DNA from: Candidatus Nitrosopumilus sp. SW
GTDB taxonomy: Archaea; Thermoproteota; Nitrososphaeria; Nitrososphaerales; Nitrosopumilaceae
Direction of reading: 5' to 3'
DNA: 64,000 nucleotides
Assembly (NCBI RefSeq): GCF_006740685.1
Contig: NZ_CP035425.1
Span: forward strand, 1-64,000
The notes under the pieces are model-generated. The model had not been told where the DNA came from. It made no database searches and worked only from the letters and a program-made list of their open reading frames with translations. This document shows, one piece after another, positions 3,767 to 38,302 of this stretch (the first letter of the stretch is position 1; every line of letters begins with the position of its first letter). Made by a program: the position numbers and the translations under genes.

Positions 3767-3786
3767 TTTAGAGGATGTCATTTTAT

Positions 3787-3967
3787 CTATGACTTACACT
3801 ACCGATCTGCCTACTGGTCTATGACTTACACTACCGATCTGCCTACTGGTCTATGACTTACACTACCGATCTGCCTACTGGTCTATGACTTACACTACCG
3901 ATCTGCCTACTGGTCTATGACTTACACTACCGATCTGCCTACTGGTCTATGACTTACACTACCGATT
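3787..3967 (+). repeat. 32-bp tandem array, 5 full copies plus a partial sixth
   Basis: Unit CTATGACTTACACTACCGAT plus a 12-base remainder, with copies beginning at 3787, 3819, 3851, 3883, 3915 and a truncated one at 3947. The copies are identical. Each contains an open mini-ORF (MTYTTDLPTGL) whose TGA overlaps the next copy's ATG as ATGA; the last runs to a TAG at 3988-3990. A short ORF at 3775 (MSFYL) joins the first unit the same way. No spacers and no dyad, so it is not a CRISPR. Confidence 0.95.
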
Positions 3968-4049
3968 TGCATATAAATACAGAATTTTAGATGATCAATT
4001 ATTCTATACATGATTGTCTGTTTCATATAGAATTTTTATTCACAATTTT

Positions 4050-4621
4050 ACTAGTCTCACAGCTTACCTCACTTTACTAGTCTCACAGCTTACCTCACTT
4101 TACTAGTCTCACAGCTTACCTCACTTTACTAGTCTTACAGCTTACCTCACTTTACTAGTCTCACAGCTTACCTCACTTTACTAGTCTCACAGCTTACCTC
4201 ACTTTACTAGTCTCACAGCTTACCTCACTTTACTAGTCTCACAGCTTACCTCACTTTACTAGTCTCACAGCTTACCTCACTTTACTAGTCTCACAGCTTA
4301 CCTCACTTTACTAGTCTCACAGCTTACCTCACTTTACTAGTCTCACAGCTTACCTCACTTTACTAGTCTCACAGCTTACCTCACTTTACTAGTCTCACAG
4401 CTTACCTCACTTTACTAGTCTCACAGCTTACCTCACTTTACTAGTCTCACAGCTTACCTCACTTTACTAGTCTCACAGCTTACCTCACTTTACTAGTCTC
4501 ACAGCTTACCTCACTTTACTAGTCTCACAGCTTACCTCACTTTACTAGTCTCACAGCTTACCTCACTTTACTAGTCTCACAGCTTACCTCACTTTACTAG
4601 TCTCACAGCTTACCTCACTTT
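4050..4621. repeat. 26-bp tandem array, 22 copies
   Basis: Unit ACTAGTCTCACAGCTTACCT followed by CACTTT, repeated 22 times without spacers. The only difference I saw is one C-to-T change in the fourth copy (near 4135). 26 is not a multiple of 3, and stops appear in every forward frame, so it is non-coding. It follows the 32-bp array after about 80 bp and directly precedes the 52-bp array. Confidence 0.95.
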
Positions 4622-4634
4622 AGTTTGTCAGTCA

Positions 4635-4915
4635 TGCTCTAACTTTGAAAATTACTACACCAATAACACATTCCTATCTAGATCTATGTTCTAACTTTGA
4701 AAATTACTACACCAATAACACATTCCTATCTAGATCTATGTTCTAACTTTGAAAATTACTACACCAATAACACATTCCTATCTAGATCTATGTTCTAACT
4801 TTGAAAATTACTACACCAATAACACATTCCTATCTAGATCTATGTTCTAACTTTGAAAATTACTACACCAATAACCCATTCCTATCTAGATCTATGTTCT
4901 AACTTTGAAAATTAC
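4635..4915. repeat. 52-bp tandem array, 5 full copies plus a partial sixth
   Basis: The unit begins TGTTCTAACTTTGAAAATTA and ends TAGATCTA, starting at 4635, 4687, 4739, 4791, 4843 and a partial copy at 4895. The first copy has C for T at its third base, and the fifth has AACCCATT instead of AACACATT. The unit length is exactly twice that of the neighbouring 26-bp array, though the sequences do not look related. On the minus strand each unit holds a 10-codon ORF (MCYWCSNFQS), which may be chance. Confidence 0.93.
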
Positions 4916-5125
4916 TTGACTTTGCATCTTATTTTGAATTATTTTTGTATGTATTATGTTATTTTGATCTATAAGACTAAAATATTTAGAAAAATTTTTG
5001 TAACTTCTAAAAATTATTGATGTAAACATGGTCGATCTGTTGATTGATTTCTATTTAATATAATATTTTAATTCTGGTTTATTTTCTGTCACTGCATATT
5101 TTTTAAAATTATTTCGGTTCCCATC
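4916..5125. other. AT-rich spacer between arrays; no gene seen
   Basis: About 210 bp of very AT-rich sequence between the 52-bp and 12-bp arrays. I find no convincing reading frame, RNA gene or strong dyad. Confidence 0.6.
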
Positions 5126-5605
5126 ATTATTTTCTAAATTATTTTCTAAATTATTTTCTAAATTATTTTCTAAATTATTTTCTAAATTATTTTCTAAATT
5201 ATTTTCTAAATTATTTTCTAAATTATTTTCTAAATTATTTTCTAAATTATTTTCTAAATTATTTTCTAAATTATTTTCTAAATTATTTTCTAAATTATTT
5301 TCTAAATTATTTTCTAAATTATTTTCTAAATTATTTTCTAAATTATTTTCTAAATTATTTTCTAAATTATTTTCTAAATTATTTTCTAAATTATTTTCTA
5401 AATTATTTTCTAAATTATTTTCTAAATTATTTTCTAAATTATTTTCTAAATTATTTTCTAAATTATTTTCTAAATTATTTTCTAAATTATTTTCTAAATT
5501 ATTTTCTAAATTATTTTCTAAATTATTTTCTAAATTATTTTCTAAATTATTTTCTAAATTATTTTCTAAATTATTTTCTAAATTATTTTCTAAATTATTT
5601 TCTAA
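5126..5605. repeat. 12-bp tandem array, 40 perfect copies
   Basis: Unit ATTATTTTCTAA repeated 40 times (480 bp) with no substitution visible. One forward frame stays open (Leu-Phe-Ser-Lys repeating) and one reverse frame stays open (Leu-Glu-Asn-Asn repeating), but neither has a start codon tied to the array. It ends about 65 bp before the ATG of the giant repeat protein, so it may affect promoter geometry. Perfect identity implies recent expansion or homogenisation. Confidence 0.95.
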
Positions 5606-5672
5606 ATTTCGTGCCTGGTGTTAGGTCTATTTTTTTATAGCCAGTATTAAATTTGGGAACAGGGGCAAATGA

Positions 5673-8600
5673 ATGAAAGGTATTTTACAAAATGGTAAAA
5701 TTATTTCGTTAAATTTGTGTATGATCTTATTATTTTCAATTATCACATTTTCAATCACTCCTTTAGAAGATAATACGTCAAAAATTATTTTTCCTTTATC
5801 CAAATTATCAGAAGATTCTTTCACTCAAACTAATTTTGATACTGAAAAATTTCAAATTGTAAAAACAGAAATTGATGAAAATTCAAACCTGTTTCAATTA
5901 TCATTAGATGAAGAAATTAAAATCACTGTAAATGAAATTTCTCAAGAAAAGTTGGTTTTTGTAAAGCAAAACATGGAACGAAAAGCTATTTTGGAAAAAA
6001 TCTTTTTTCAATCAAACATTCGTTCAGAATTAGATAAACATGTTTTTGATTTTATGATTTCGATTATGGACTCCAATTTAGAAATACTTGAAAACAATAT
6101 CCAATTCATTGTAATTTCTGATGAGTTTATTGAACATGATTTTTTAAACACCTATTTGAATAGATTGTTTACTTCATCTGTTATCTCTTCGGATTATTTT
6201 TTATCATTAAACTTACCTTTTAATGACTCTTTAACAATTCATTCATTTAATTCTGATGATGTATCAATTATCACATTTTCATTATTTGCTCCTTTCTTTG
6301 GAATTTTATTTGTAATTCCTACAAAAGAATTTTTGATTAGAAAGAAATTCTTTAAAAATTCTATTTCTTTTATGTTTTCGATCTTTTTATTAACTTCTCT
6401 TGTTATTCAACCTGTTTCTGATAATATTGTGATGTTTGTTTATGCTGATTCAACAAACTCTACAAACTTGGATTCATATTTACAATCAACCATCATTATG
6501 GATCCTGAACCTGGTGTGGATGACATTGTAATGGATCCTGAACCTGGTGTGGATGACATTGTAAATGTTGGCTCTGTTAACGCCACATCTGTTGGCTCTG
6601 TTAACGCCACATCTGTTGGCTCTGTTAACGCCACATCTGTTGGCTCTGTTAACGCCACATCTGTTGGCTCTGTTAACGCCACATCTGTTGGCTCTGTTAA
6701 CGCCACATCTGTTGGCTCTGTTAACGCCACATCTGTTGGCTCTGTTAACGCCACATCTGTTGGCTCTATCAATAGTACTGATACAGATCTGCTTAACGCC
6801 ACATCTGTTGGCTCTATCAATAGTACTGATACAGATCTGCTTAACGCCACATCTGTTGGCTCTATCAATAGTACTGATACAGATCTGCTTAACGCCACAT
6901 CTGTTGGCTCTGTTAACGCCACATCTGTTGGCTCTGTTAACGCCACATCTGTTGGCTCTGTTAACGCCACATCTGTTGGCTCTGTTAACGCCACATCTGT
7001 TGGCTCTATCAATAGTACTGATACAGATCTGCTTAACGCCACATCTGTTGGCTCTATCAATAGTACTGATACAGATCTGCTTAACGCCACATCTGTTGGC
7101 TCTGTTAACGCCACATCTGTTGGCTCTGTTAACGCCACATCTGTTGGCTCTATCAATAGTACTGATACAGATCTGCTTAACTCCACATCTGTTGGCTCTG
7201 TTAACGCCACATCTGTTGGCTCTATCAACAGTACTGATACAGATCTGCTTAACTCCACATCTGTTGGCTCTGTTATAATGGATCCTGAACCTGGTGTAGA
7301 TGACATTGTAATGGATCCTGAACCTGGTGTAGATGACATTGTAATGGATCCTGAACCTGGTGTAGATGACATTATAATGGATCCTGAATTCAAAAATATT
7401 GTTTTATTAGAACCAGAAATAATTTCTACTCCAATTCTTGATTCAACTGAACAAACATTCGAACTATCTGAGGATGCAACATTTGAGTTAGAGTTCTTTG
7501 ATGAATATGATGCATTACTATCTGAGATTGAAGAGATTGAATCAGCTGCACAAATACTCTTAACTGAAACAGAATCTAGTCTTACAGAATTAAATGATCC
7601 GGCACTATCTACGCAATCATTTGCTGCAGTTCTTGGAATGATCTTTTCAATTGAATTATTCTTACCAAGTGTTGATGCTGCAAATGGAAATGATGTTGAA
7701 CAAACTAAAACAGAACTTGAATCCCTAAAACAACAACTAGAATCTCTAAAGATTCAAACAGCATCCCTAAAACAATCAGGTAATCTCGATGAAGAATCAG
7801 TCAAAGATCTAAAGAAACAACTAAAATCAATACTAAATGATATCAAGTCAACTGCAAACAAACTAAACGCAAATGACAAAGCACAAGCAGTAAAACTAGA
7901 CAAATCAAGTCATAATGCAAAAAAAATTGTAGATGTTGATACATTTGACAAGAAACAAAATGGAAAATGGCAAGATGATGAAACCGAAATCAATACAGAA
8001 GTTTTTGATTCCAAAGGAAACAAGGTAGACATTAAATCTGAAATTCAGAAAAACAGAGATGGTAAATTCACTATAACATTACTTCCTGATGATATTACCA
8101 CACCTGGTCTCTACAAACTAAAGACAACATTTACCGTAAATGGTGAAACTCACACAGTTGAAGAAGAATTTGCATGGGGTTTGGTATCATTAAACACTGC
8201 AAAGAGCACATATCAATCAGATGAAGATGTAGAATTTATCATTGTAGTTTTAGATTCAGAAGGCCATCCTGTTGCTGGTGCTGATATCTTCATGACCGTG
8301 ACTAGCCCTGCCAATCAAATTACATCCTTATCGACACAAAATGAAATTGTTGATGGTAAAGAAATTGGACTGTATGAGGCAACATATCATACAGAAAATG
8401 TGGATGGAATATACCAAGTATACATCAATGCCCAAACAACAGGAATCAATACTGACTTTAACACAACATTTGGTGTTACAGACTTTGTAGAGTATGATAT
8501 TGTCAGAACAACTCAATCCAAAATCGATCCCACAATAAACCCAAACTTCTTTGATGTCAAAATCGATATTGAGTCATTTACTGGAGTAGACACAATAACA

Positions 8601-11600
8601 GTTATTGAAACTGTTCCTGCAGTGTTGGAAATTTCTGACACTGATGCAAATATTGTCACTTCAGGTGATAGAAAGATACTCACATGGACTATAAACTTGA
8701 TTGATGATAAAACTGTCTTAGAGTATACATATTCTGTTCCATTTATCTTTCCAAGTTTGTATGATCTAGGACCACTTGTAATTGATAATGGTAATTTAGT
8801 ATTCACTGAATCAAGAGCATGGTATGTAGCAAATGACCCTGCCACATTAACTGGTTGTGAGGGTGCTGGTCCTACTACGTGTCAAATTGATGAAGAAGTC
8901 ACACTAGTCACAGATCTAATTGAATTGTCTGTCGTAAAAACACTCTCTGACTCTATAGGAACATCTGACACAATTAACACTGTATTTGTTAGAGACCTAT
9001 CTGACTCTATAGGAACATCTGATGCTGTAACAACAACTCAAACATCAAAAACACTCTCTGACTCTATAGGAATATCTGATACAGTTGTCACTGTAAAATC
9101 CATCACAAAAACACTCTCTGACTCTATAGGAACATCTGACACAATTAACACTGTATTTGTTAGAGACCTATCTGACTCTATAGGAACATCTGATGCTGTA
9201 ACAACAACTCAAACATCAAAAACACTCTCTGACTCTATAGGAATATCTGATACAGTTGTCACTGTAAAATCCATCACAAAAACACTCTCTGACTCTATAG
9301 GAACATCTGACACAATTAACACTGTATTTGTTAGAGACCTATCTGACTCTATAGGAACATCTGATGCTGTAACAACAACTCAAACATCAAAAACACTCTC
9401 TGACTCTATAGGAATATCTGATACAGTTGTCACTGTAAAATCCATCACAAAAACACTCTCTGACTCTATAGGAACATCTGACACAATTAACACTGTATTT
9501 GTTAGAGACCTATCTGACTCTATAGGAACATCTGATGCTGTAACAACAACTCAAACATCAAAAACACTCTCTGACTCTATAGGAATATCTGATACAGTTG
9601 TCACTGTAAAATCCATCACAAAAACACTCTCTGACTCTATAGGAACATCTGACACAATTAACACTGTATTTGTTAGAGACCTATCTGACTCTATAGGAAC
9701 ATCTGATGCTGTAACAACAACTCAAACATCAAAAACACTCTCTGACTCTATAGGAATATCTGATACAGTTGTCACTGTAAAATCCATCACAAAAACACTC
9801 TCTGACTCTATAGGAACATCTGACACAATTAACACTGTATTTGTTAGAGACCTATCTGACTCTATAGGAACCTCTGATGCTGTAACAACAACTCAAACAT
9901 CAAAAACACTCTCTGACTCTATAGGAATATCTGATACAGTTGTCACTGTAAAATCCATCACAAAAACACTCTCTGACTCTATAGGAACATCTGACACAAT
10001 TAACACTGTATTTGTTAGAGACCTATCTGACTCTATAGGAACCTCTGATGCTGTAACAACAACTTCTGCTCAAACTAAAACACTCTCTGACTCTATAGGA
10101 ACATCTGATGCTGTAACAACAACTTCTGCTCAAACTAAAACACTCTCTGACTCTATAGGAACATCTGATGCTGTAACAACAACTCAAACATCAAAAACAC
10201 TCTCTGACTCTATAGGAATATCTGATACAGTTGTCACTGTAAAATCCATTACTAAAACACTCTCTGACTCTATAGGAACATCTGATGCTGTAACAACAAC
10301 TTCTGCTCAAACTAAAACACTCTCTGACTCTATAGGAACATCTGATGCTGTAACAACAACTTCTGCTCAAACTAAAACACTCTCTGACTCTATAGGAACA
10401 TCTGATGCTGTAACAACAACTTCTGCTCAAACTAAAACACTCTCTGACTCTATAGGAACATCTGATGCTGTAACAACAACTTCTGCTCAAACTAAAACAC
10501 TCTCTGACTCTATAGGAATATCTGATACAGTTGTCACTGTAAAATCCATTACTAAAACACTCTCTGACTCTATAGGAACATCTGATGCTGTAACAACAAC
10601 TTCTGCTCAAACTAAAACACTCTCTGACTCTATAGGAACATCTGATGCTGTAACAACAACTTCTGCTCAAACTAAAACACTCTCTGACTCTATAGGAACA
10701 TCTGATGCTGTAACAACAACTCAAACATCAAAAACACTCTCTGACTCTATAGGAATATCTGATACAGTTGTCACTGTAAAATCCATTACTAAAACACTCT
10801 CTGACTCTATAGGAACATCTGATGCTGTAACAACAACTTCTGCTCAAACTAAAACACTCTCTGACTCATTAGGAATATCTGATGCTGTAACAACAACAAC
10901 TTCTCAAACAAAGACTCTTTCGGATTCTATTTCTATAGTGATGCCTATATCTCTTGAAACTGGTACTAGTGTAATTATTGATTCTCAAACTAGTACTGTA
11001 ACTTTAGATTCTACCACAAATAAAATTGTAGTTGGAAATACTACTTCCTTAACCGCAATTTCTGTTCCTTCTACAGTTAGTACTCCTATATTAGATCTAG
11101 ATGGAATTGTAAATAGTACTGGTGTATCTGATGCTTTATCTCAAACATTAACAATTTCATCCTCAAATACTGCAGTTGCAACTACTGTTGAACTTGCTAA
11201 TGGTACAATAATTTCGGGAACTAATTGGGATGGTGAATTGACTTTGCCTACTGCAAAATCTACTGGCAGTATTACGATTTCCGGAGTTACAACCAGCTTT
11301 GTTATGGAGTTTGGAGATCCGGATATTACTTTAACATTTAGCACTCCTGTAAAATTAACATTAAATGATCAGGCAGGAAAACGTGCATACATTACAGAAG
11401 GCAGTAATCAAAACGAAATAACTACAACATGTAATTCTAGCAATGTAACTAGTGTAAGCAACATTCCTACATCTTTCCCACAAGCATGTAAAATTAATTC
11501 AGGAAATAATTTGATCATATTGACAAAGACTGCATCCACATTTTCTACTGGTTCCACCACTGTAACTACAACAACTACAACTACCACTGAAGATACTTCT

Positions 11601-13139
11601 TCCCAATCTTCACCAAACCGTGGAGGTAATCGTGGTAGTAGTGGTGGAGGTGGAGGAGGTGGTGGAGGTACCATCTCTGGATCTGGTATAATTGCTGAAG
11701 GTACTCAATTGAAAATATATGAAATTGAATATGATGTATGTACTGATTATAAAGTCAAAATTTTGGCAGGAGTAGATAATGAGGATCCTGAGCTTCCATC
11801 TCATCCTGATGCAAAAATTAGAACTCCATCTAATGGAATTGTTCAGGCATCATTAATGGAGGATCAACCTTTGGCTCCAAGTAAATACTACTATGAAGCA
11901 GGTTTGTCGTCTGGAGATACATTCTTCGTTGCAATAGTAGAAGCATTTGCAGGACGAGTCCCAATTGTTACTCAAAGCAGTATTAATGTTAACGAATGTG
12001 AAGAAATACTTGTAATTAACAAAGATACAACTGAAAGCAGAGTATCTGATGCATCAGATCCAAAATCTCCAAGAATATATGATATAAAATTCAGATTAGG
12101 TGATTCTACAATTGAACGTAGTTCACTTGATACAAATAATTTTGCAGATTCTGAACAATCTATTCATATTACTGGCAATGTTAATTCTCCAACTGACATC
12201 GAAAGAGCTGAATTAAGAGTATCTAACATTGAACAACCAGAATCTGAATATATTGCACTTTTGATGAATTCTAAACACCTCACATCTAATTCTTATGAAA
12301 TTTCGGGTGAAATTACTAAAGATCTTATATCTGAACCTGGAATCAAATATTGGATTAGAGTTACAAATGCTGATGAAAAAGTTCAGGAATCTGGTAAATT
12401 CACTATTAGTACACAACCTGCATATGAAGTGGACGTAAACCTTGATCTGAATGTAAAACAAAATATTGCAAAAGGAAAAATAGTAAATGTTTCAACTGTC
12501 ATAAATAATAATTCAGAAGGTCCATTATTTGGAACACTTCAAGTATTAGTAGATGGAAAAATGCTTTCTGAGAAAACAAAATTATTTGAAACAGGACAAC
12601 AAACAATCAAGATTCCATGGACAATAGAAAAACAAGACTCAAAACTAGAATATGAAATTCAAACAATATTCCAAAGCTACGGTGAAATAATTAAGAGTGA
12701 TACTGTAAAAGTCAAAACCTTTACTGCAAAGAAAGCAATACCTCTATCAGAGTTAACTGAAATCCAATCCATTACGGATGAAAATGGTTCTATTGTAGCA
12801 AGAACTGCTTATCTATATTCATCAACTTATGACACGAGTTTGAAATTCCGAGTAATTGCACCGGATGGTACATGTGTAATTGGAGACACCGCCGAGTGCT
12901 TCATTACTGATTCTACTACTGGTAAAAGAGGTAACTTTGAGAGTATAGTTCTTGATGAGCAAATTATCCGTGTAAGGTATTCCGGGTCAGACAATCCTGT
13001 ACAAAGATTCTCAATAACATCTGTAGATCCAATTGAAGGCAAATGGGACATCAAACTTGAATCTAAAGATGGAAGCCACGTGAGTGAAGACATACTGAAT
13101 GAAACCAAATTGAAGATTACATTCAGAGGAGGCAACTAA
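5673..13139 (+). CDS. Giant secreted/surface repeat protein
   Basis: 2488 aa. In order: hydrophobic signal-like N-terminus (1-28); two hydrophobic segments near 200-220 and 240-265, the second resembling a signal peptide ending in [15 protein letters not shown] x2 (276-297); an N-A-T-S-V-G-S array with N-S-T variants (298-535); [11 protein letters not shown] x3; coiled coil (~675-735); beta-rich Ig/macroglobulin-like region to ~1085; about 34 LSDSIG[T/I]SD repeats (~1090-1750); beta region; Thr-rich and Gly-rich linkers (~1965-2005); a mixed ~480-aa C-terminal domain. No C-terminal anchor or PEFG signal is visible. About 29 N-X-S/T sequons in the first array suggest heavy N-glycosylation. Two ATGs lie at 5669 and 5673; only 5673 is in frame. 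Likely an adhesin or envelope protein; function inferred. Confidence 0.85.
6498..7376 (+). repeat. Coding repeats: EPGVDD blocks flanking an N-glycosylation-sequon array
   Basis: Two 33-bp units ([11 protein letters not shown]) at 6498-6563, then 6564-7277 made of 24-bp units (GSVNATSV) mixed with 48-bp units ([16 protein letters not shown]), then three more 33-bp units at 7278-7376. The same 33-bp unit brackets the array on both sides, with a G-to-A change in the downstream copies. All units are in frame, as expected under selection for an intact protein. Confidence 0.95.
8940..10930 (+). repeat. Coding repeats: SDSIGTSD array with 171-bp higher-order unit
   Basis: The basic units are 18-20 codons built on LSDSIG[T/I]SD. 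From 8940 they form a three-part higher-order unit of exactly 57 codons (171 bp) at 8940, 9111, 9282, 9453, 9624 and 9795, with a seventh block starting at 9966. After about 10060 the pattern changes to a looser mixture dominated by a 60-bp unit ([20 protein letters not shown]). About 34 basic units in total. The nucleotide identity of the higher-order units is near perfect. Confidence 0.95.
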
Positions 13140-13140
13140 T

Positions 13141-15849
13141 TTGAATTTCAATAGAATTACAATTGGAATCATTATTGCTGTGTTGGTAGCAAACCCTGTA
13201 ACTTTCTCCCAAATTCAGGCTCAAGGATCTGATGAAATATTAAATTCAATTCAAAATATCAAGGCAAAAGTTACAGAAATTCAAATGCTTACAGGATTTG
13301 AAGATCCTGGTTTATTAGAAAATCAAATAGATGCAATTGATACAGAATTTTCCATATTAGAAAATAAAATATCAAAAGATGATATAATCGTAGAATATAT
13401 TGGAATTGAATTCACTGAATCGGTAAAACAATGGAATGTTCTAAAAAATATCATTTCCTTTACGCCATTAAATGATAGTAATAAAGAAAAAGTAGATTCT
13501 GTATTAGAATACTTCCAAAACAAAGAAGAAAAATTAAAAATCCTATCCGGAAATATCATTAATGAATTCTCTTCACTAGATAATAGTTATTTCAAACATA
13601 AAGAAATTGCAAAAAATATACAAGAATCAATCAATAACATAAGCATAATTTCAAAAACAGATCAAATTAATAACTATGCAGAAATTCAAAATAATCGAAT
13701 AATAATACAATCAAGTGTTAAAACACTATTACAAATTCCATTAGAAGATAATGAATCCTTGCACATAGAACAGATAATTCCTATTCCTAGGGAGAACTCT
13801 AAATCATTAAATGAATTTGAATTCGTATGGGAATCCGTACAATTAAGATTATTATCAATAGAACAAATTTCTACATCAAATATCTCAATCCAAGAAGGAA
13901 TTACGACAAAATCTGCCACACAGAATCTGATTTCATCCCTTGAAAAATTAGAGAATTCTTGGAAATCAGAATCTAAAGCAGACTTCAATCAACAATCAAT
14001 TTTCATATTAATTGGAGTGATCATTGTTGGAATAATTGTAGTTGGATTGGTTTACAAAAAATTGAGAGTCAAACAAATAGAACCAGAACCAGTTGTAGAA
14101 CCAGAACCAGTTGTAGAACCAGAACCAGTTGTAGAACCAGAACCAGTTGTAGAACCAGAACCAGTTGTAGAACCAGAACCAGTTGTAGAACCAGAACCAG
14201 TTGTAGAACCAGAACCAGTTGTAGAACCAGAACCAGTTGTAGAACCAGAACCAGTTGTAGAACCAGAACCAGTTGTAGAACCAGAACCAGTTGTAGAACC
14301 AGAACCAGTTGTAGAACCAGAACCAGTTGTAGAACCAGAACCAGTTGTAGAACCAGAACCAGTTGTAGAACCAGAACCAGTTGTAGAACCAGAACCAGTT
14401 GTAGAACCAGAACCAGTTGTAGAACCAGAACCAGTTGTAGAACCAGAACCAGTTGTAGAACCAGAACCAGTTGTAGAACCAGAACCAGTTGTAGAACCAG
14501 AACCAGTTGTAGAACCAGAATCCATCCCTGAAATCATTATTGTTATTTTACATGATAATGGGAAATCAACACATCAACAGATCTTTGATAAAATAATCAA
14601 GTATTTACCTTCAACCCAACGTGAAACGATGCGGGCTAGATTAAGTGAATTAAGAAGAAAAGGTTTGATCTCAAGAGGTGATGATGGATTATGGACCCTG
14701 GAAGAAAAAGGATACAAAGAATATGAATCATTGAAAAAAACCCAACAAAATATTCAATCTGAGTCTATTTTACAAGAATATTCTGGTTTAGAAGAAGGTA
14801 TCTATCTATTTAGACATGGGAAATATCAAGATGCAAGTAAATTATTTGAAAATATTCTAAAGGAAAATGATGATGATACTGGTGCACTATACTATAACGG
14901 ACGTTCCCAATCTCATTTGTACAATCATGATTTGGCATTGTATAATTTTGAAAAATTATTAAGTATTGATCCAAAACATATTGATGCACAATATCATCTT
15001 GGAATAGAATTATCTATCATAGGCAAACATGTAGAGTCAATTAATGCATTTGATAAAGTATTGACTATCGACTCCAATCACAAGAATGCATTACTGAACA
15101 AAGGACGTTCCTTGGTAATTCTAAATAAAAACAATGAAGCTATATCTTGTTATGATAAAGTCCTTGAAATTGATGAAAATAATTTGGAAGCACTTTATCT
15201 AAAAGGAATGGCGTTACAAAAAGATCATCAAGAAACTATTGCCATCAAATGTTATGAGCAGATTGTTGCTATTCAACCAGATCATAAACTTGCTCACTAT
15301 AATTTGGGTTTGTGTCTAACTGAAATTGGAGAACATGAAAAAGCTGTTCACTCATTTGATAATGTTTTATCATTAGATCAAAACCATAAAGAATCTATCT
15401 ACCAAAAAGGATTGGTGTTATTGGGAATGGGCGAATTCTTTGAATCTGAAAAATTATTCGATGAAGTTTTGAAATTAGATTCAAAACATTTGGGTGCATT
15501 AGGACACAAAGGATTTGTTTTATCAATGCTTGACAAATATGAGGATTCATTGATTTATTTCGATGATGTGATTAAAGCAGATCCTCTTGATACAAAAATT
15601 TTATCATTTAAGACTTATTCCTTAATGAAATTGAGTCGATTTGATGAAGCTTTTTCAAACTGTAAAAAAATTATTGATTTAGATTCTAGAAATGGTAATG
15701 CACTTTATAATTTATCTAAAATAAGAATCCTGCAAAATAAACCTGAAGATGCCCTTCATTATCTACGACAAGCAATCCAAATCAATCCAAAATATGAACA
15801 AATGTCCCAATCTGAACCTGCATTCCAAGGGGTTTTGACTAGAGAATAA
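13141..15849 (+). CDS. Membrane protein: coiled-coil ectodomain, TM, EPEPVV linker, winged helix, TPRs
   Basis: 902 aa from a TTG start one base after the stop of the giant gene, so almost certainly co-transcribed. Signal peptide 1-28 (ends SQIQAQ); helical coiled-coil region ~30-280; one TM helix ~286-306 followed by basic residues; 24 exact EPEPVV hexapeptides (314-457); winged helix ~460-535 ([31 protein letters not shown]); about nine TPR units to the end (for example [20 protein letters not shown]). The positive-inside rule puts the winged helix and TPRs in the cytoplasm. It could be a membrane-tethered regulator or scaffold that senses the neighbouring surface protein. That role is inference. 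Confidence 0.82.
14080..14511 (+). repeat. 18-bp coding tandem repeat, 24 copies
   Basis: Unit GAACCAGAACCAGTTGTA (Glu-Pro-Glu-Pro-Val-Val) occurs 24 times with no change seen, right after the TM segment of the host gene. EP-rich repeats form extended rigid linkers, so this would be a stiff acidic stalk of 144 residues between the membrane and the cytoplasmic winged helix. Confidence 0.97.
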
Positions 15850-35584: not shown

Positions 35585-36256
35585 ATGCCTAATTTTGCTC
35601 AGATGTTAAAGACACGAGAGCCCACTCTGCTTGATAGAGAAGATGGGCATTGGTACCAAACAAAATTCGATAAAATCTATCCTTCAATAAACACAATCTT
35701 GTCTGCAACTGCTCCTGAAGAAAAGAAAAACGGTCTTGCTTCCTGGAAGGAAAATGAACCTGCTCATGAATATATCACAACACAATCTCAACACATTGGT
35801 ACCCAATCACATCAAATAATTGAAGATTATTTGAGTAGTAAACTGAACTTGGAAGAATTTGATTTACTTCCTATTGCTCACTTTCATAATCTAAAACCAT
35901 ACTTGGAAAATATCTCTGATGTTACATGTATCGAACAAAGAATGTATTCCGATAAACTGAAGGTTGCTGGAACTAGTGATCTCATTGCAAGGTACAATGG
36001 TGAATTATCCATTATTGATTACAAGACAAAAAGAAAACCCCAAGTTGATGAATACATGTATGAATATTATTTACAAACTACCTGCTATGCTCAAATGTTC
36101 CATGAAGTTACAGGACAAAAAATTAACCAAGTAGTAATACTTGTCAGTAGCGAAAAGAACACTCGTCAAGAATTTGTCAAACACTGTGATGACTATCTTG
36201 AACCCCTACACGAGAGATTAGAAAAATATTATCTAAACAACGAAGTGATGTCATGA
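35585..36256 (+). CDS. PD-(D/E)XK exonuclease, MGME1/RecB-like
   Basis: 223 aa. Nuclease-fold elements in order: GTQSHQIIEDYL (helix with His/Glu), KVAGTSDLIARYNGELSIID (motif II Asp), IIDYKTKRKP (the D-x-K of the motif) and the QxxxY-type helix YYLQTTCYAQMF. This matches small RecB-family single-strand exonucleases such as MGME1. Probably acts in DNA repair or replication. A TM microprotein overlaps its stop by ATGA. Confidence 0.78.
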   Translation: MPNFAQMLKTREPTLLDREDGHWYQTKFDKIYPSINTILSATAPEEKKNGLASWKENEPAHEYITTQSQHIGTQSHQIIEDYLSSKLNLEEFDLLPIAHFHNLKPYLENISDVTCIEQRMYSDKLKVAGTSDLIARYNGELSIIDYKTKRKPQVDEYMYEYYLQTTCYAQMFHEVTGQKINQVVILVSSEKNTRQEFVKHCDDYLEPLHERLEKYYLNNEVMS

Positions 36257-36996: not shown

Positions 36997-37968
36997 ATGA
37001 AAACTCGATACACTGCTTTGTTTCTAGTTGCTATTGTTTTGTCGATGGCAATTGTTGCTCAAATCGATTTCATACAAACTGCTGATGCTGTAAAAGCTAA
37101 AGGTACAAAAAGTATGAAGTATGGAATGGCTACTAAAGACAAAGTTTGCGGTGATAGACTATGTACTCCTCAAGACTTTACTTCTCCAGGAGAGCGCAAA
37201 TCATTACCTGCATTGAGTGATTCTCACATAACCTCACAAATGGCTATGTCCAAAATGGAAAAATTATTTGAACTTCATAGAATGCAACTTTTATCTGCAT
37301 GGGATTCAATGACAGATTCTGAAAAATCTAACATGATGAAGATGTTTGATAGAATGTATGAAATGATGCAATCTATGGACTTCAAAGATCACATGAAGCA
37401 TATGAAAAAGATGATGGCTGATAAACATCATCAAGGATGTGATTGTGGTGCCGATGGATGTGACTGTCCAGGATGTAATTGTGGAGATGGAATGCACGGA
37501 TGCTCTTGCGGAGATATGAAACACGGAATGGGTTGTAATTGTTCAGAAGATGGAACCTGTTCTTGTGGTGAAGGATGTTCTTGTACTGGAGAAAACTGCA
37601 CATGCGGTGAATCTGGTCAATGTTCATGTGGCGCAGGATGTAACTGTGGAGATGGTCAACACGGATGTAACTGTGGAGATGGTCAACACGGATGTAACTG
37701 TGGAGATGGTCAACACGGATGTAACTGTGGAGATGGTCAACACGGATGTAACTGTGGAGATGGTCAACACGGATGTAACTGTGGAGATGGTCAACACGGA
37801 TGTAACTGTGGAGATGGTCAACACGGATGTAACTGTGGAGATGGTCAACACGGATGTAACTGTGGAGATGATTCTATGACGTGTAGTGCAGGAGAAGATA
37901 GTTGTACTTGTTCTGAAGATGGAGTTTGTAATTGTGGCGAAGGTTGTACTTGTGCATCTTGCCATTAA
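36997..37968 (+). CDS. Exported metallothionein-like CxC repeat protein
   Basis: 323 aa. Signal peptide ~1-31 (ends TADAV). Methionine/histidine-rich middle (~75-145: MMKMFDRMYEMMQSMDFKDH, HMKHMKKMMADKHHQ). From ~148 the protein is almost only Cys-x-Cys pairs in Gly/Asp/His context, including eight exact GDGQHGCNC units. I count about 46 Cys, over 40 of them in CxC pairs, the metal-thiolate pattern of metallothioneins, plus Met/His copper-type ligands. Secretion is unusual for a metallothionein. Copper sequestration or delivery outside the cytoplasmic membrane would fit an ammonia oxidiser, but that is inference. Confidence 0.82.
   Translation: MKTRYTALFLVAIVLSMAIVAQIDFIQTADAVKAKGTKSMKYGMATKDKVCGDRLCTPQDFTSPGERKSLPALSDSHITSQMAMSKMEKLFELHRMQLLSAWDSMTDSEKSNMMKMFDRMYEMMQSMDFKDHMKHMKKMMADKHHQGCDCGADGCDCPGCNCGDGMHGCSCGDMKHGMGCNCSEDGTCSCGEGCSCTGENCTCGESGQCSCGAGCNCGDGQHGCNCGDGQHGCNCGDGQHGCNCGDGQHGCNCGDGQHGCNCGDGQHGCNCGDGQHGCNCGDGQHGCNCGDDSMTCSAGEDSCTCSEDGVCNCGEGCTCASCH
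37648..37863 (+). repeat. 27-bp coding tandem repeat, 8 copies
   Basis: Unit GGAGATGGTCAACACGGATG plus TAACTGT (Gly-Asp-Gly-Gln-His-Gly-Cys-Asn-Cys), eight copies that look identical, in frame. Copy number should set metal capacity and is probably variable between strains. Confidence 0.95.
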
Positions 37969-38002: not shown

Positions 38003-38302
38003 TTATTTTTTAGGTCTTTTTCGAGGATTTTTCTCATAATATTTTTCGACATTCTCATTCCATTCTTTGTTTTCTGGTAAACGTGAACGTGGGTGAGGCC
38101 TTTTACCTTTTTTTGATAATAGATCACTATTTTCTTCATAAAATCTGTCGATTTCTGCAATCAACACATCTAGAAATTTTGATGCATCATTAGCTTCTTG
38201 ACTTTTAGGATCTCTATGTGTCAAAATTGATTTTGCTAGTGTATCGACTTTAGCTGTTTTTATCTTGTATTCATAGCGAACTCTATTTTCAAATGTAATC
38301 AT
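38003..38302 (-). CDS. Hypothetical basic protein
   Basis: 99 aa, helical and basic (VRYEYKIKTAKVDTLAKSIL; FLDVLIAEIDRFYEENSDLL) with a C-terminal basic/proline tail (KKGKRPHPRSRLPENKEW, KNPRKRPKK). Composition suggests nucleic-acid or ribosome association. Convergent with the CxC protein. No recognised family. Confidence 0.6.
   Translation of the reverse strand: MITFENRVRYEYKIKTAKVDTLAKSILTHRDPKSQEANDASKFLDVLIAEIDRFYEENSDLLSKKGKRPHPRSRLPENKEWNENVEKYYEKNPRKRPKK

Follow-up and report, generated by a model that had tools for sequence, protein, structure and literature searches.

We analyzed a 64,000-nucleotide stretch of the genome of Candidatus Nitrosopumilus sp. SW (contig NZ_CP035425.1, positions 1 to 64,000; hereafter the window) and propose that the gene at 36997–37968 on the forward strand probably, if by no great measure of confidence, encodes an exported metallothionein-like thiolate metal buffer of Nitrosopumilus, which would most likely bind Cu(I) and be held in the pseudoperiplasm. 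The proposal draws on a predicted signal peptide, 46 Cys residues with 21 CxC motifs, a Met- and His-containing front, selection on the coding sequence, the two Cys and one His kept in each repeat unit, a tail predicted to be unfolded, the presence of CxC blocks in a second protein architecture, and the occurrence of the same mature N-terminus on multicopper oxidases. The architecture, the N-terminal module, and the array rebuilt species by species are new, and none of the open-licence papers that we found names the protein or the module.

Sequence Features of the Protein

The gene is a single ATG open reading frame (ORF) of 323 amino acids plus a stop codon (TAA, 37966..37968), as read from the ORF translation of the window, and is present in one copy in its own genome, a single contig of 1,499,620 bp. 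The protein contains 46 Cys, 24 Met, and 17 His; its Cys fraction of 14.2% compares with 4.0% in the runner-up and a median of 0.75% among the 61 ATG ORFs of at least 100 aa in the window. All 46 Cys are in the predicted mature part (residues 32–323): the N-terminal module has two, and the 177 residues of the tail (147–323), where CxxC occurs twice and CC never, have the other 44. The 21 CxC motifs compare with a mean of 6.4 and a maximum of 14 in 2,000 shuffles of the same residues.

The signal peptide (residues 1–31, MKTRY...QTADA; 36997..37089, +) was called by inspection as Sec type: the sole strongly hydrophobic 15-mer spans residues 7–21 (hydropathy 2.94, against a best value of 0.37 from residue 36 onward), an AxA-type end (T-A-D-A before V32) follows, and the segment is kept in orthologues. 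Next come, on the same strand, the mature N-terminal module (residues 32–58, VKAKGTKSMKYGMATKDKVCGDRLCTP, including CGDRLC; 37090..37170), delimited by profile A1 and by the varied domains that succeed it in other proteins, and the Met/His-rich helical domain (residues ~79–146; 37231..37434), delimited by alignment A2 and three predicted helices; the stretch 32–146 holds 18 Met and 6 His. The first CxC block (residues 147–213, including CNCSEDGTCSCGEGCSCTGENCTCGESGQCSCGAG; 37435..37635, +) was defined from the translation and its likeness to the CxC blocks of proteins in genomes G158 and G136, to which residues ~174–245 are 62–63% identical. The 27-bp tandem array (37636..37870, +; residues ~214–292) consists of eight identical units GCNCGDGQH and the first 19 bases of a ninth (8.7 copies at 100% by TRF), and the protein ends in a C-terminal CxC block, ...CTCSEDGVCNCGEGCTCASCH (37871..37965, +), present in 7 of the 8 genomes of the family and missing in G088. 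The first-pass annotation had described an exported protein with a clear signal peptide, about 46 Cys, a Met/His-rich segment, and eight identical repeats, and our counts and the hydropathy profile agree with it.

Pfam and NCBIfam scans of the protein gave no model above its cut-off, a search for viral relatives found none, and an Rfam scan of the window returned no RNA element. Approximately 50–75 bases upstream of 36997, the orthologues have a short stretch in common (TTATTTTCA...TG.GAAAT), a possible promoter or regulatory element.

Relation to Known Metal-Binding Proteins

The protein resembles metallothioneins (Pfam Metallothio_2 and others; SmtA and MymT, which are bacterial metallothioneins, PMC7558416) in its dense CxC motifs, its Gly/Ser/Asp spacers, and the lack of a predicted fold without metal. 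With 44 Cys in 177 residues and 21 CxC, it has the high Cys content in CxC or CxxC motifs that characterizes them. Unlike metallothioneins, which are usually, if not strictly, small, single-domain, and cytosolic, it is 323 aa long and predicted to be exported, and it has two extra domains, one of them helical, a Met/His-rich front, and a homogenized array of nine-residue units. Metallothio_2 matched residues 129–162 only, at E=0.027 and 15.8 bits against a cut-off of 23, and the NCBIfam metallothionein models gave no match at E≤1. As judged by these searches, the protein is outside the known metallothionein families.

Csp1-type proteins (PF03860, e.g., MtCsp1) have in common with it export (predicted, for the protein studied here), richness in Cys, and a host dependent on a copper monooxygenase (PMC7558416, PMC7785015). 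In Csp, the Cys sit within the helices of a four-helix bundle, whereas in the protein studied here the predicted helices carry Met and His and the Cys belong to a CxC tail for which no fold is predicted. Csp1 is exported by Tat (PMC7558416, PMC7785015); the signal peptide called here by inspection has no twin-arginine. PF03860 gave no match at E≤1 to the protein, and none in its genome. The model was found in 2 of 250 Nitrosopumilaceae genomes, both of genus g15, and in none of Nitrosopumilus, with a sensitivity limited by its short length of 21 positions. NVIE_028200 is a Csp of N. viennensis, and the acquisition of Csp has been placed in Nitrososphaerales (PMC7554672). The earlier remark that CxC-dense proteins are usually cytosolic is broadly right, but exported Cys-rich copper stores of the Csp1 type are described (PMC7558416), so export alone is not new.

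An N-Terminal Module Shared by Unrelated Exported Domains

The mature N-terminus recurs in other proteins. Profile A1, built from 18 mature N-termini, has invariant A, K, G, C, G, and C and the consensus K..G...YG.AT..KVCGDRLCSE. It matched 140 of the 250 Nitrosopumilaceae genomes at E≤1e-3, a count including many marginal matches in genus g15 (E ~1e-4 to 1e-3); of 400 genomes sampled from the order, 101 contained a module match at E≤1e-5, and all of these belong to Nitrosopumilaceae. The protein studied here has both the predicted signal peptide and the pattern K..G...YG...CGD.LC, and it scored E=7.5e-20 against the profile, which contains a near-copy of it. NCBIfam models covered the module in none of the 18 members, aside from one chance match, and Pfam gave no match above cut-off over it in ten scanned proteins. 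The module, absent from the first-pass annotation, is itself new and specific to Nitrosopumilaceae.

The ten module or module-like ORFs scanned comprised two multicopper oxidases (L100, L107), a metallo-beta-lactamase (L013), a DUF1264 protein (L008), a Calx-beta/TSP3 protein, a DUF7482 protein (L106), and four below cut-off, among them the CxC-rich L089 and L101 with 72 and 46 Cys. L100, L107, L106, L008, and L013 share the mature N-terminus with the protein studied here but differ in their C-terminal domains; L008 and L013 also have the Met/His helical domain in common with it. A second CxC architecture is found in L089 (G158), L090 (G136; 73 Cys, from reading of the sequence only), and L101 (G152), where closely similar CxC blocks (CNCSEDGTCSCGxGC...) with 46–73 Cys in total alternate with a repeated domain that by eye looks beta-sandwich-like; all three are exported proteins that bear the CGDxLC-type module, but unlike the protein studied here, these have neither the Met/His helical domain nor the 27-bp array. 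The domain scans of L089 and L101 found no family above cut-off. That a lineage-specific mature N-terminus precedes otherwise unrelated exported domains points to a role in sorting or retention, or to a modification that these proteins share.

The genome of strain SW has two module proteins, the product of 36997–37968 and L109 (G000:C1:178705-178794, reverse strand), and the literal CGDxLC pattern occurs once. L109 resembles L106 by eye (VCGLQLCSEIPGGK) and has CGLQLC in place of CGDRLC. Module ORFs at G095:C3:26234 and G221:C113:1361 each contain one in-frame stop codon and are possibly pseudogenes or assembly errors. A Cys-rich match on one strand of L091 (G005:C1:1735500-1739000), in a 3.2-Mb genome, was spurious and stems from a long GGPGPRRQ-type repeat.

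Predicted Helices and an Unfolded Tail

For the helical domain, AlphaFold2 predicted three helices from 24 sequences with a mean pLDDT of 74.0, and His, Trp, and Met are invariant in alignment A2 (24 sequences). A Foldseek search of the model against the PDB found no fold match (best E=3.7), a PDB profile search gave nothing better than E=0.063, and Pfam on the alignment returned a weak DUF3106 match in 7 of the 24 members (best E=2.9e-4). The W..MT..E pattern of the domain raised the idea of a Spy/CpxP/ZraP-like metal sensor, which was discarded as a candidate after the PDB profile search and Foldseek both came back empty. The full-length model was unusable (pLDDT 39.8): at this low confidence, its helices at residues ~80–141 contain Met and His and no Cys, and for the array it predicts no structure. 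A tail predicted to be unfolded is what would be expected of an apo-metallothionein.

Distribution and Genomic Site of the Family

A first-pass proposal was to search for homologues and their repeat numbers. The family is present in 8 of the 250 Nitrosopumilaceae genomes, including the one studied here, mostly at one syntenic site, and the array unit and its copy number differ between species. Seven genomes (G000, the genome of strain SW, G105, G104, G127, G121, G088, and G151) have at least 64% identity over the first 145 residues, while the eighth, G106, contributes the C-terminal end alone, at a contig edge. A separate search with a CxC-block profile matched 7 of 250 genomes and missed the gene studied here; the resulting number is thus a minimum, and we did not use it for the distribution.

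The neighboring genes are conserved around the family gene in six of the seven other genomes: G105, G127, G104, and G088 retain the entire block, and G121 and G106, in which the contig stops at the gene, retain its downstream half. The exception is G151, whose copy (L098, G151:C183) is located elsewhere, among ORFs that we take to be AMMECR1-like, Memo-like, and isoaspartate-methyltransferase-like. In the window, the gene is flanked by a PD-(D/E)XK nuclease-like gene (35585..36256, +; Pfam PF12705, E=1.3e-9) and by a 99-aa gene of no family (38003..38302, −), which by synteny form the left and right edges of an empty site in relatives. The left-hand neighbor was matched in 69 of 95 genomes of the genus, and we compared 30 loci from these. 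The family gene adjoins it in five loci, including that of strain SW, and the G121 sequence ends too early; in six loci (G090, G124, G139, G098, G097, G101), the right-hand neighbor is present and the family gene was not found in the gap of ~245–580 bp (~1.1 kb in G124). At the remaining 18 loci, neither the family gene nor the right-hand neighbor is within 1.5 kb of available sequence. The mixture of occupied and empty loci implies that the gene was gained here or lost elsewhere. Other genes nearby are presumably tryptophan-biosynthesis-like or are unnamed, and neither the Pfam scan nor the ORF list of the window revealed a recognizable copper or metal-resistance gene near 36997–37968.

Selection and Turnover of the Repeat Array

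Purifying selection acts on the front of the protein and on its C-terminal Cys block. In comparisons of strain SW with six orthologues, dN/dS over the N-terminal 145–146 codons was 0.11–0.36; in the C-terminal CxC block, each of the 21 pairwise comparisons among seven sequences gave a dN lower than dS, though with only 20 codons per sequence and with some ratios reaching ~0.7. Between these regions, the repeats vary. The array unit is GCNCGDGQH in eight copies in strain SW, GCSCGDGEH in four copies in G105, GCSCGEGEH in four copies in G151, and GCSCGHDET in four or more copies in G106; G104 has a 24-bp unit, CGSDGHGC, placed before rather than after the CDCSEDATCSCGEGC block. The G121 and G088 orthologues have no array. 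Total Cys ranges from 46 in strain SW through 26 (G105), 22 (G127), 18 (G151), and 14 (G121) to 10 in the G088 orthologue at 789945–790391, which also lacks the C-terminal block; G104 was left out of these totals because its gene is split by an N-run. The array of G104 runs into an N-run, and that of G106 into the end of its contig. From their sequences, the arrays look like separate expansions within one protein, each species having built its array anew from a unit of its own. Every unit of the five differently spelled arrays retains two Cys and one His, with the Cys as CxC in four and as CC in G104.

The His kept in each unit while other residues turn over speaks against a rather unlikely alternative, in which the protein is a disulfide-linked surface or matrix protein whose Gly-Cys-Asn/Ser-Cys-Gly repeats are oxidized outside the cell and crosslinked into a stiff fiber, metal being incidental. 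CxC motifs are also poor disulfide partners within the pair. This alternative would fit export into an oxic compartment, the Gly-rich repeat of period nine, further long surface-like repeat proteins in the same window, and the Dsb-family thiol oxidoreductases described as acquired throughout AOA (PMC7554672). The protein also has matches to collagen-like adhesins (Scl; NF038329), which are far under the NCBIfam cut-offs (30.6 of 325 bits and 25.8 of 400 bits) and look compositional.

Perfect tandem arrays without Cys are frequent elsewhere in the window (28 TRF rows, counting those that overlap), among them repeats spelled with 14 and 12 residues as well as a run of four at 3786–5608. Slippage is general in the window, only the residues kept per unit hint at function, and copy number does not by itself demonstrate selection for metal binding. 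These arrays, and the G121 and G088 orthologues that manage without one, would be compatible with neutral slippage in a tolerant tail, the working part being the module and helical domain only. We consider this improbable, as the C-terminal CxC block is outside the array and has dN below dS in seven genomes, and the two Cys and one His, with CxC in four of the arrays, persist through the changes of unit. The earlier suggestion that copy number tunes capacity is accordingly left half standing: repeat number and total Cys differ by species as in a tunable store, but slippage of a general kind may account for the growth of the array.

The four arrays at 3786–5608 are near-perfect and in series (32 bp x5.8, 26 bp x22, 52 bp x5.4, and 12 bp x40), lie between long ORFs, and are apparently noncoding. 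They are upstream of an exported-looking repeat protein of 2488 aa (5673–13139), which has arrays spelled with 19 and 12 residues; it is followed by a TPR-like ORF (13141–15849) with ~25 copies of EPEPVV, highly alike at the DNA level.

Discussion

CxC-rich tails bind soft metals generally, and the patchy distribution (8 of 250 genomes) is as for a niche trait, so that a sink detoxifying Zn, Cd, Ag, or Hg could be envisaged instead of a copper reservoir; we find this harder still to accept, given that no resistance gene was recognized nearby and multicopper oxidases carry the same module. Least probable is an exported sacrificial antioxidant whose 24 Met and 46 Cys scavenge H2O2 or other oxidants close to where ammonia is oxidized, for although the protein is predicted to be exported and marine AOA are described as largely lacking catalase genes and varying in H2O2 sensitivity (PMC6593220), such a sink needs neither ordered CxC spacing nor conserved His.

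A thiolate metal buffer remains our preferred reading, with copper favored because external copper enzymes dominate the metabolism (PMC7785015), the protein shares its module with copper oxidases, its front is rich in Met and His, and Csp is nearly absent from the family Nitrosopumilaceae. The protein would be exported by Sec and cleaved after residue 31, as predicted. Judging from its sharing among proteins, the module with its CGDRLC pair may retain the protein beneath the S-layer, in the pseudoperiplasm, or sort it there, and presumably does likewise for multicopper oxidases and other exported carriers. The Met/His helical domain might take up metal loosely, mediate oligomerization, or both, and the CxC/His tail, disordered without metal, would fold around it as metal–thiolate clusters. 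Such a tail could serve as a reservoir or sink feeding, or shielding, the external copper enzymes. Array units gained and homogenized by slippage would let capacity change fast between species; the arrays do vary from species to species, and we infer the adaptive value.

Several observations count against the buffer. Once exported, the Cys may form disulfides instead of binding metal, G104 has a CC unit, and only 8 of the 250 genomes have the family. The helical domain matched no fold in the PDB, no metallothionein model passes its cut-off, and Cys-free arrays are found in the window. In the first-pass annotation, the protein had been read as an external copper store; its predicted export, CxC density, and Met and His content uphold that reading in part, while the G088 orthologue, with 10 Cys and neither array nor C-terminal block, and the lack of a recognized copper gene nearby weigh against it. 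More speculatively, and with doubt prevailing, the undescribed Nitrosopumilaceae module (K..G...YG.AT..KVCGD[RK]LC[ST]E) may act in retention or sorting and concentrate copper oxidases, along with further exported proteins, at a single location in the pseudoperiplasm, where, in a lineage without Csp, an exported CxC protein of tunable capacity would be the external copper reservoir for ammonia oxidation.

Marine ammonia oxidizers depend on external copper enzymes, and Csp, the one known storage family, was found in only 2 of the 250 Nitrosopumilaceae genomes. A direct candidate for keeping copper at hand beyond the membrane would be an exported thiolate store whose repeats can be counted, and the presence of the module on copper oxidases and CxC proteins alike offers a testable handle on how exported proteins are arranged in these archaea.
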